A stretch of DNA of 64,000 nt from assembly GCF_940143175.1 (NCBI RefSeq), contig NZ_OW659496.1, positions 372,001 through 436,000 of the forward strand, written 5' to 3'. The notes beneath the pieces were generated by a model. The model ran no database searches. It saw only the letters and a list, made by a program, of their open reading frames with translations, and was not told where the DNA came from. Below, one piece after another: positions 55,329 to 58,435 of this stretch. Each line of letters opens with the position of its first letter. The first letter of the stretch is position 1. Origin of the DNA: Erysipelothrix amsterdamensis. Lineage in GTDB: Bacteria > Bacillota_I > Bacilli_A > Erysipelotrichales > Erysipelotrichaceae. A program made the position numbers and the translations under genes.

Positions 55329-55356
55329 TTTACTATTATACCGTAGGGGGTATAAT
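55329..55356 (+). promoter_or_regulatory. trxA promoter with CstR/CsoR-type operator
   Basis: TTTACT (55329-55334), 16 bases, TATAAT (55351-55356). The operator TATACC-GTAGGG-GGTATA (55337-55354) fills the spacer and overlaps the -10. A C/G-rich centre between TATA half-sites is the form bound by CsoR/CstR repressors. The same design recurs at 56855-56872. Confidence 0.75.
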
Positions 55357-55395
55357 AGAGTCATAAGGTAAATAACCAAAAGGAGTGTAACAATT

Positions 55396-55707
55396 ATGGC
55401 ATTACATATAACAGATAAAGACTTTAAAGAACAAACTTCAGAGGGACTCGTATTTGTAGACTTCTTCGCTGAGTGGTGTGGACCATGTAAAATGCTTGCA
55501 CCTGTAATTGATGAACTTGCAGAAAAATATGAAGGTAAAATCAAAGTTGCGAAACTAGATATTGATGAAAACCGCCAAACTGCAACGGAATTTAATGTTA
55601 TGAGTATACCAACAATGATCTTGTTTAAGGATGGCGAACCTGTTGAAAAAATCAGTGGATTCCAACCAAAACAAGCACTTGAAAAATACTTAGACAGTAA
55701 AATATAA
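55396..55707 (+). CDS. trxA: Thioredoxin
   Basis: 103 residues with WCGPC (27-31), FVDFFAEWCGPCKM and the cis-Pro motif SIPTM. It reduces disulfides and can also reduce persulfides. AAGGAG precedes the ATG. The promoter carries a CstR-type operator, and a strong terminator follows, so most transcripts should cover only this gene. Confidence 0.95.
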   Translation: MALHITDKDFKEQTSEGLVFVDFFAEWCGPCKMLAPVIDELAEKYEGKIKVAKLDIDENRQTATEFNVMSIPTMILFKDGEPVEKISGFQPKQALEKYLDSKI

Positions 55708-55720
55708 TTGTAAAGATATG

Positions 55721-55753
55721 ATATAATGTGGCCGATGCCACATTATATTTTTT
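55721..55753 (+). terminator. Terminator between trxA and the rhodanese gene
   Basis: A perfect 12-bp stem (ATATAATGTGGC/GCCACATTATAT) with a CGAT loop, followed by T residues. It also contains TATAAT, which might serve as a -10 for the genes downstream. Confidence 0.8.
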
Positions 55754-55768
55754 AGGAAGGGTATCAGT

Positions 55769-56071
55769 ATGTATAAAACTATTATGACCCCAGAATTAGA
55801 GTCACAGTTAAATCGTAACGAAAGTTTGAATATCATTGATGTTCGGGATGTGTGGGAGTTTGAAAGTGGTCATATTAAAGGCGCACTTAATATTCCACTT
55901 GGTGAATTGGCGGATCAGTATACGAAACTTTCGAAGGACAAGATGTATCATATAATTTGTCTAACCGGTCAGCGTTCTCAAGAAGCATCTCGTTTTCTTT
56001 CGGCTCAAGGATTTCAAGTTGTGAATGTAATGGGTGGTATGTCGATTTATAAGGGAGCGATGTCACAATGA
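55769..56071 (+). CDS. Rhodanese-like sulfurtransferase
   Basis: This 100-residue single rhodanese domain has active Cys64 in the loop C-L-T-G-Q-R-S, and IIDVRDVWEFESGHIKGALNIPL before it. It carries sulfane sulfur as a cysteine persulfide. AGGAAGG precedes the ATG. Its stop overlaps the CstR-like gene by 4 bases, so the two are made together, as in staphylococcal cst loci. Confidence 0.9.
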   Translation: MYKTIMTPELESQLNRNESLNIIDVRDVWEFESGHIKGALNIPLGELADQYTKLSKDKMYHIICLTGQRSQEASRFLSAQGFQVVNVMGGMSIYKGAMSQ

Positions 56072-56316
56072 CATGTGAAAAACAATTATTAAACCGTTTA
56101 AAACGAGCTGAAGGACAAATACGAGGTGTTACGCGTATGCTTGAAGAAGGCGAGAGCTGTCAAGATGTCTTGGTTCAATTAACGGCTGTACGATCAAGCG
56201 TTGATCGTATTATTAAACTGATTGCAGTAGACAATCTACTGGATTGTGTCGATGAATCGGGTCGTGATCATGAACGCGTTCAAGATGCAATCAATCTCAT
56301 CGTTAAGTCTCGATAA
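56068..56316 (+). CDS. CstR-like persulfide-sensing repressor (CsoR family)
   Basis: 82 residues with the all-helical CsoR/DUF156 fold (RLKRAEGQIRGVTRML). Cysteines sit at C31 and C60. The Cu-sensing CsoR has Cys, His, Cys, but here the His position (four before C60) is Asn56. C31 and C60 are the two positions used by CstR, which forms di- and trisulfide bridges with sulfane sulfur. So persulfide sensing is more likely than copper. It should bind both operators described nearby. Confidence 0.85.
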   Translation: MTCEKQLLNRLKRAEGQIRGVTRMLEEGESCQDVLVQLTAVRSSVDRIIKLIAVDNLLDCVDESGRDHERVQDAINLIVKSR

Positions 56317-56327
56317 CGAGATACAAT

Positions 56328-56364
56328 AAAATAAAAGCACCTATGCAGTAGGTGCTTTTATTTT
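56328..56364. terminator. Bidirectional terminator between cstR and the CxxC membrane gene
   Basis: A 16-bp perfect stem (AAAATAAAAGCACCTA/TAGGTGCTTTTATTTT) with a TGCAG loop. It overlaps the stop codon of the minus-strand gene. Confidence 0.9.
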
Positions 56365-56826
56365 ACATGTTGTATTATTGATTTCATAACGTGTCCAGAC
56401 AAGTCCGAGAAGGATTAGTACTAATGAAAGTAATTTGTACGGAAGTCCGGCTAACGGAAGGGCCATGACTGAGAAGGCAATTCCGATGTTTGCGAAAAAT
56501 GCAATAACACAAGGGGTACATCCGTAGGTAAGAATTCCGAATAGAATGGATACAAAGCTGAGATTTGCACCTTTACTTTCGATACCTTTAAGATCTACCA
56601 TAATAGTATTTAAAACCATTAAGAGGCCACTGAGAAGTGCCATTAATAGATTTATAAATACATTGATAATAACGAGATACATACCATATTCAAGTATCAT
56701 CTCACGGTAACTGAGGTTGAAGGAATCAATAAGCGTATAGATTGCGAGAAAGAAAATCGAAAATAACGCAAGTTTCATCAACGACCTCGGTGACTTAAGT
56801 TTCTGTAATGCTTCATTAAACATCAT
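56341..56826 (-). CDS. Unknown membrane protein with CxxC, under a CstR-type operator
   Basis: 161 residues with four or five helices (about 18-35, 45-70, 90-110, 113-128 and 130-145). A C-T-P-C pair (about 104-107) sits at the mouth of a helix and another Cys is near residue 154. AGAGGTG precedes the ATG pair. I recognise no family. Its promoter carries the same TATACC-N6-GGTATA operator as trxA, so it is probably part of the sulfur-stress response, perhaps as a transporter or redox carrier. Confidence 0.75.
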   Translation of the reverse strand: MMFNEALQKLKSPRSLMKLALFSIFFLAIYTLIDSFNLSYREMILEYGMYLVIINVFINLLMALLSGLLMVLNTIMVDLKGIESKGANLSFVSILFGILTYGCTPCVIAFFANIGIAFSVMALPLAGLPYKLLSLVLILLGLVWTRYEINNTTCKIKAPTA

Positions 56827-56854
56827 AGTTCACCTCTTATTATTACAAAACCAT

Positions 56855-56872
56855 TATACCACAGGGGGTATA
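56855..56872 (-). promoter_or_regulatory. Second CstR/CsoR-type operator
   Basis: TATACC-ACAGGG-GGTATA, with the same half-sites and spacing as the trxA operator. On the minus strand it overlaps a TATAAT -10 upstream of the CxxC membrane protein gene. Confidence 0.75.
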
Positions 56873-56917
56873 TATATAAAGGATTATGCTTTTATTCGCT
56901 CATGAAGCATTTAATAT

Positions 56918-56992: not shown

Positions 56993-58435
56993 ATGAAATG
57001 CGATCAAATAGAACTAAAGAGTCAGGAAGATGAACTTCCGTGTAGCTCTAATAATAAAGCAATAAGTATTCCGAAAGTTAAGGGTCATATACTAAGCGGA
57101 TGTTTTGGTGATGATCTTCGAGCTGAAAGGCACTTATCCAGGGCTCAAAAACAAGGGAATACAGATTGTGATCGATCGCAAAGGCAAGGTTTCGATGTGA
57201 ATCTGGAATGTCCAATAAAAACTCAATTGGATGAACTCCATGAATGGTGTCAGGGTAAGTTATCGGGTCATTTTTCACCCCGATATCAAGTTTTATCCTT
57301 TACACAATTTAACCCCAAAACGAAAACCATAAGTGTTCGTAATAATTTTAAACACTTAGATACGAAACGTGCGGTGTTTCGGTCGTGTGTGCTTAAGGAT
57401 GGGCACAGAATTTTAGGATCGGACGCAACCGTAACAATCGCTGCTGGGGTTGGTGAAATGCAAGAAGTAACTTTAAACACCCCAAGTTTTTATGAATTTG
57501 ATGCAATGTATCACCTAAATCTTTACGTTAAAGACCCTTACACAGATGATGATGTGTTGTGTCATCAATTGCGTCTTCATCATTTGGTGAAGCAAGAGGT
57601 TTTAATGGCGGATGTTTATGCTGCCATCGAAGTTGTAGAGACGCAGAAGCGTTGTGAAGTTCATGGTGAGCATTTCTCCCTATCGTTTCATAAAGAAACG
57701 GGTTTTATGGATTCGTATTTTTATCACGGTGAATCATTGCTGAGTCAGCCGATGAGTTTATTGTGTAATCGTGGCCCCATGAATTATGAAGATAATGAAC
57801 ACTGGCATTCATTCACGCGTGAATGGTCGCAGGAGGCCGTTGAATCGACGACACAGCATTTTTCAATTGTAGTTGTAAATGATTCGCGTGTTCGCATTAC
57901 GATTCGTAGTGTGCTTGCAAATGGTTCTGTAGTGCATACAATTTATAAAGTCTATGCAGATGGTCGTGTTTGGGTGCGTCAAACGTTTAAACCCTCAAGC
58001 CATTCCGGACTCTCGATGATTGGATTTAAGATTCCACTCGGACAGTCCTATAGCGAATTTCGTTACTTTGGCAAAGGTCCGCATGCAAATTATCAAAATC
58101 TAAATGATGATCTAGGTTTAGCTGTTTATCAAGAACTTATCGAAGAAGTGAGTTCAAAGACATTTAAGAATCATACTCAAGTTTTTTGGGCATCATTGAC
58201 GAATTCATCACAACGTGGTGTGATGATCAAGTCAGATCGATTACCGCTGAATGTTGGTGCATGTAGAAGTGATGATGACTGTGTAGCGTGTATCGTGGCA
58301 GTTGATGTTGTAGGGTGGTTATCAAAGCACGATCCTCAGTTTATGGATGTTCACCGGGAGTATCATTATGAATTTGAGATGGTTCCGGTCACTAAAGGAC
58401 AAGAAGATGTTTATTACAAGGTTAAGATGATATAA
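56993..58435 (+). CDS. Beta-galactosidase C-terminal domains without a catalytic domain
   Basis: 480 residues starting after a strong AAGGAGG. Residues about 93-180 resemble LacZ domain 4 (VLSFTQFNPKTKTISVRNNF). Residues about 215-480 resemble the Bgal small-chain domain (ETGFMDSYFYHGESLLSQPM, FRYFGKGPHANYQN). The sugar-binding, jelly-roll and TIM-barrel parts with the two catalytic Glu are absent. The first 90 residues match nothing I know and are Cys- and Gln-rich. It may be a deletion remnant or a LacM-like subunit without its partner. Promoter, cre and ribosome site are intact. Confidence 0.65.
   Translation: MKCDQIELKSQEDELPCSSNNKAISIPKVKGHILSGCFGDDLRAERHLSRAQKQGNTDCDRSQRQGFDVNLECPIKTQLDELHEWCQGKLSGHFSPRYQVLSFTQFNPKTKTISVRNNFKHLDTKRAVFRSCVLKDGHRILGSDATVTIAAGVGEMQEVTLNTPSFYEFDAMYHLNLYVKDPYTDDDVLCHQLRLHHLVKQEVLMADVYAAIEVVETQKRCEVHGEHFSLSFHKETGFMDSYFYHGESLLSQPMSLLCNRGPMNYEDNEHWHSFTREWSQEAVESTTQHFSIVVVNDSRVRITIRSVLANGSVVHTIYKVYADGRVWVRQTFKPSSHSGLSMIGFKIPLGQSYSEFRYFGKGPHANYQNLNDDLGLAVYQELIEEVSSKTFKNHTQVFWASLTNSSQRGVMIKSDRLPLNVGACRSDDDCVACIVAVDVVGWLSKHDPQFMDVHREYHYEFEMVPVTKGQEDVYYKVKMI

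Follow-up and report, generated by a model that had tools for sequence, protein, structure and literature searches.

A probable CstR-type reactive-sulfur regulon with two promoter-overlapping operators in Erysipelothrix amsterdamensis

The closest described systems are the CstR regulons of S. aureus (cstAB-sqr and cstR-tauE) and E. faecalis (rhdA, coaP, rhdB and cstR). In E. faecalis, CstR represses rhodaneses and CoA-persulfide reductase, abbreviated CoAPR below (PMC9405070). The S. aureus regulon is induced by HOSCN too (PMC10715087), so that signals other than persulfide may be at work, and thioredoxins of S. aureus reduce protein persulfides (PMC6196236). For Erysipelothrix, term searches of open-access papers found no study of persulfide biology.

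The stretch of E. amsterdamensis DNA analysed here (64,000 nucleotides, hereafter the window) contained a locus that shared with these regulons a CsoR-family repressor with Cys31 and Cys60/62, a rhodanese-linked locus and sulfur-handling targets. On the other hand, it lacked sqr, cstB, tauE and CoAPR, the last being the best-established CstR target. Its targets would be trxA and a gene for an unnamed membrane protein (memP), its repressor had an extra Cys3, and a further target may lie at a distance. We consider it quite likely that this locus is a small CstR-type reactive-sulfur regulon. Its features were as follows.

55329-55356, plus strand: trxA promoter, TTTACT, 16-nt spacer and TATAAT (55351-55356); conserved in four species.
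55337-55354, plus strand: operator 1, TATACCGTAGGGGGTATA; overlaps the trxA -10 box; kept in four species.
55396-55707, plus strand: trxA, thioredoxin of 103 aa with WCGPC; TIGR01068 at 128 bits (cut-off 96.8).
55721-55753, plus strand: terminator-like hairpin with a U-run between trxA and the rhodanese gene; possible attenuator.
55769-56071, plus strand: single-domain rhodanese of 100 aa; active-site loop CLTGQRS (CxxGxRS); PF00581.
56068-56316, plus strand: cstR, CsoR-family repressor of 82 aa; C3, C31, N56 and C60.
56327-56365, no strand assigned: terminator-like hairpin where cstR and memP converge.
56341-56826, minus strand: memP, unnamed family, 161 aa, four predicted transmembrane segments (TM); TYGCTPC and C154.
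56853-56880, minus strand: memP promoter, TTTATA, 16-nt spacer and TATAAT (56858-56853).
56855-56872, minus strand: operator 2, TATACCACAGGGGGTATA on the plus strand; overlaps the memP -10 box; kept in four species.

A preliminary description of this DNA had placed two identical copies of TATACC-N6-GGTATA upstream of trxA and memP. Exact matches were found at both positions, and these were the only matches in the window at zero to two mismatches. The genome-wide scan proposed there as a check gave the same two exact copies and no others in 1,908,712 bp, where a first-order Markov model fitted to the window predicted 0.051 (0.0017 per window). The half-sites and the spacing were indeed identical. 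The spacers, GTAGGG in operator 1 and ACAGGG in operator 2, had the right part AGGG in common and differed at two bases (16 of 18 positions agreed overall), so that 'identical' was slightly overstated.

Near-matches with one or two mismatches numbered 64 in the genome, against 87 for the reversed control pattern. This suggested that most of the other near-matches arose by chance. The tighter pattern TATACCNNNGGGGGNATA occurred three times in each of four species (E. amsterdamensis and three sisters), and its reversed control gave no sites in the four.

Operator 1 lay between TTTACT and TATAAT and overlapped the latter; operator 2 was placed alike on the minus strand. In the four-species alignments the half-sites and the G-run were invariant and the spacer letters drifted, from GTA to GGA at the trxA operator and, at the memP operator, in E. 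tonsillarum. This was expected of a binding site. CsoR-family operators are pseudo-palindromes with a run of at least four G/C (PMC10318464), and both sites had this form over the promoters of linked sulfur genes, as a CstR operator should.

Thioredoxin, rhodanese, CstR and a membrane protein with CxxC had been read as a compact persulfide response. The thioredoxin, the rhodanese and the CTPC-bearing membrane protein were present as described, and the persulfide reading gained support at the sequence level. Two qualifications arose.

The first was a third operator-like site, TATACCATGGGGGGCATA, at G000:C1:196442-196459 (L006:3943-3960), so that the regulon may extend beyond one compact locus. 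It lay in the divergent promoter between an NfsA-like nitroreductase gene and a FrnE/DsbA-like gene, both named from sequence motifs. It overlapped a TATAAT on the nfsA side and was fully conserved in four species, all of one clade. It was absent from more distant CstR-bearing species, and a genome without CstR had a degenerate form of it. We regard it as a candidate third target, with the chances about evenly balanced. A sister species also had a second, decayed nfsA-like copy with several stops (G004:C1:10250-10957, L200).

The second was the hairpin between trxA and the rhodanese gene, which had a folding z of -3.7 and was kept in four species, with C-G replaced by U-A at the loop-closing pair in E. 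tonsillarum. Since it separates trxA from rhodanese-cstR, a single operon is not assured. Because the hairpin and its U-run precede them, the rhodanese gene and cstR are probably transcribed and controlled through read-through only, below the level of trxA. A possible internal promoter before the rhodanese gene (TTGAAA-N18-TATAAT, 55679-55708) was rejected, as it lay mostly inside the trxA coding sequence and was not kept in E. tonsillarum.

The same operator was found at persulfide genes on plasmids of other Bacillota. In Secundilactobacillus (L183) it preceded rhodanese-CoAPR-rhodanese-CstR. In Lysinibacillus (L184) one copy preceded CstR-rhodanese-rhodanese and a second TusA-DsrE-MBL(PDO-like)-TusA-TauE. 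The genes named here count as recognised persulfide genes, and operator class thus matched gene content. The Levilactobacillus plasmid unit (L185) came close to the window locus, with the operator ATACCTATGGGGGTAT, a thioredoxin gene and a CstR-type gene in that order, but it had neither rhodanese nor MemP, and its repressor lacked Cys3.

Within the genus, E. anatis, E. aquatica and E. urinaevulpis showed the order trkA-[site]-trxA-CoAPR-cstR, with memP elsewhere behind its own operator copy. E. inopinata had trxA, cstR and memP together and rhodanese-CoAPR under another copy. E. anatis and E. aquatica (L171, L174) had an additional exact operator before a rhodanese gene pair away from cstR. 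A PF02583 protein was present in 12 of the 13 genomes and MemP in 11.

In the window clade, this operon seems to have lost CoAPR and retained a stand-alone rhodanese. That this rhodanese was the left-over C-terminal domain of CoAPR was ruled out, as stand-alone rhodaneses were closer to it (46-50% at best, against 33-38%). A CoAPR paralogue (CoA-disulfide/persulfide reductase, 41%) was found elsewhere in the same genome at G000:C1:356480, and was rejected as a further target since no operator lay there within three mismatches. In the region G000:C1:354500-358111 (L202) it comes after a membrane gene that looks, by motif, to be of YeeE/YedE type.

MemP had been included in the proposed regulon, and the genus strongly supported this: ATACC-N6-GGTAT stood, exact, directly upstream of memP in 10 of the 11 genomes that have it. 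Over 76 named memP loci, the 21 kb immediately upstream contained nine exact operators and the other 538 kb three. Two of these three were themselves regulon sites: one was that of trxA, and the other headed a TrxR-Trx-MemP-CstR operon (TrxR, thioredoxin reductase), a kind of unit that occurs among the memP loci. MemP also adjoined CoAPR-Rhd-TusA-DsrE fusions (L080, L081, L084 and L088), preceded CoAPR (L107) and followed TrxR-Trx (L068, L097, L104 and L111). Many memP genes of Acholeplasmataceae and relatives adjoined ABC transporters or glycosyltransferases and had no operator. MemP is thus not exclusively a CstR target.

No relatives of MemP were found in Pfam, NCBIfam or the PDB, and a PDB profile search with a 69-member alignment gave no match. 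The family motif was an invariant TYGCTxC plus C154. C103 and C106 were invariant in the 69 sequences, and C154 was present in all 68 that reach its column. The charge distribution predicted four TM with both termini inside. MemP resembled the CcdA/DsbD transmembrane family in a TPC motif inside a membrane helix and in a functional link to thioredoxin. It differed in having four predicted TM and a CxxC and in lacking a significant sequence relation: hhalign brought the TPC motifs into register at a probability of 10%, which is not significant, and the DsbD_TM profile (PF02683) matched none of 20 family members and nothing in the window genome. A second AlphaFold model of MemP had pLDDT 77 and pTM 0.71. 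Foldseek found nothing below E 3, and VIA-align gave Z scores (5-7) that are ordinary for helical bundles.

The repressor could be a general thiol-stress sensor that responds to disulfide or to HOSCN/electrophile stress, with thioredoxin and MemP repairing disulfides. HOSCN induction in S. aureus, the thioredoxin target (perhaps with the nitroreductase and DsbA-like genes) and a locus without CoAPR and sqr would fit this. Against it stand the rhodanese linked to cstR, the fact that relatives have the same operator before CoAPR, TusA, DsrE and PDO-like genes, and MemP beside CoAPR-Rhd-TusA-DsrE fusions. We regard such a sensor as unlikely and favor reactive sulfur.

It is very improbable that both palindromes serve another regulator and that cstR adjoins them by chance, even though CstR binding is a prediction and unrelated genes, to judge by the third site, can have similar sequences. 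The same site stood directly upstream of cstR-type genes at 10 other loci of the class, and it traveled with memP and trxA through rearrangements. The sole genus genome without a PF02583 protein was also without MemP.

The cstR product matched PF02583 at 83.6 bits (cut-off 22.8) and was the only such protein in the genome. As the preliminary description had it, the repressor lies between the operators and has C31 and C60, the cysteines of positions X and Z; the third cysteine, C3, had gone unmentioned. At position Y it had Asn56, where the CsoR-type comparison proteins have His56, leaving the Cys-His-Cys ligand set of CsoR for Cu(I) incomplete. CsoR-family proteins fell into two kinds, one with His56 and Cys60 (CsoR-type) and one with Asn56, and the window protein grouped with the CstR-type.

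The best solved relatives of the window repressor were 7mq1 (9.9e-18), 7mq2 and 7mq3. The PDB text labels them as CsoR, a copper repressor; we take them to be pneumococcal CstR. In 7mq3 an Ala aligned with Asn56. The neighbors of cstR were trkA, trxA, the rhodanese gene, memP and a gene with a Bgal_small_N domain, and no copper ATPase or chaperone gene (copA, copZ) was among them. A 480-aa protein at 56993-58435 had the beta-galactosidase small chain as its sole domain match; in one sister species (L015) the orthologous region was broken up among several ORFs, which suggests decay.

A copper-sensing CsoR with a copper response, to which the CsoR-family fold and the label of the best PDB match might point, was rejected on Asn56 in place of the conserved ligand His and on the grouping with CstR-type proteins, and the lack of a copA/copZ neighbor and the operator shared with persulfide genes leave it next to no chance. 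Asn56, C31/C60, the match to 7mq1/7mq2/7mq3 and the shared operator thus supported the earlier CstR-like assignment, with DNA binding and effector both predicted.

The extra Cys3 pointed to a possible change in the thiol switch. In a repressor tree built without the C3 and C60 columns, 24 of the 33 Asn56 proteins had C3 and no C60, so that every protein lacking C60 had Cys3. Both cysteines occurred in four (two of the window clade, E. inopinata and one plasmid), C60 without C3 in five, and neither in none. The tree implied at least two losses of C60, one in a large clade (98/99 support) and the other within the window clade itself; with two losses, the dependence between C3 and C60 is phylogenetically small.

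Genes for C3-only proteins were found in [operator]-CstR-TrxR-Trx or rhodanese-CoAPR-rhodanese-CstR units, and these proteins therefore appear to do the same job. Among those of L212-L223, L097 and L111, many were accompanied by TrxR and a Trx_3-domain protein behind an operator, and others followed rhodanese and CoAPR. An odd CstR-like protein inside the Asn56 clade (L224:1498-1746, minus strand) had Cys3, Cys31, His56 and Thr60.

Cys35 of FrmR has the N-terminal Pro2' of another subunit at a distance of about 2.5-3 A, and the two become bridged on sensing (PMC5146963). An N-terminal partner is therefore plausible for the conserved Cys. The FrmR/RcnR branch thus places an N-terminal residue near the X-position Cys of the other subunit, the kind of geometry that a Cys3-Cys31' bridge would require. 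It differs in effector, and the N-terminal positions are not equivalent, since C3 is 28 residues before C31 and FrmR Pro2 is 33 before Cys35. The second thiol may have been relocated to the N-terminus in CstR-type sensors.

We propose the following working of the locus. Judging by the position of the sites and by what is known of the family, reduced CstR tetramers would occupy the TATACC-N3-GGGGGTATA pseudo-palindromes that overlie the trxA and memP -10 boxes and would block RNA polymerase. When persulfides or polysulfides accumulate, C31 would be attacked and bridged to C60' or possibly to the N-terminal C3', and the bridged CstR would release the DNA, as the S. aureus and E. faecalis proteins suggest. 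Thioredoxin would then reduce protein persulfides and rhodanese would move sulfane sulfur, with CstR made at a lower level through read-through past the conserved hairpin. The same signal would induce MemP, a four-TM membrane thiol protein, which might conceivably pass sulfane sulfur or reducing equivalents from one side of the membrane to the other by way of its buried CxxC and its cytosolic C154.

A wider proposal is that the CstR of Erysipelothrix, related Bacilli and Acholeplasma-like bacteria moved its second thiol from C60 to C3, that the window protein (C3, C31 and C60) is a living intermediate, and that MemP is a new transmembrane thiol family for sulfane sulfur. We hold this tentatively, at somewhat less than an even chance. 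If true, it would be a natural experiment on thiol-switch rewiring, in which C3 was gained first, C60 was lost at least twice and three-cysteine intermediates are extant. The regulon itself would give a function-linked identity to an unnamed membrane family that dozens of genomes contain, and would add Erysipelothrix, a genus of animal and human pathogens, to the bacteria with a defined reactive-sulfur response.
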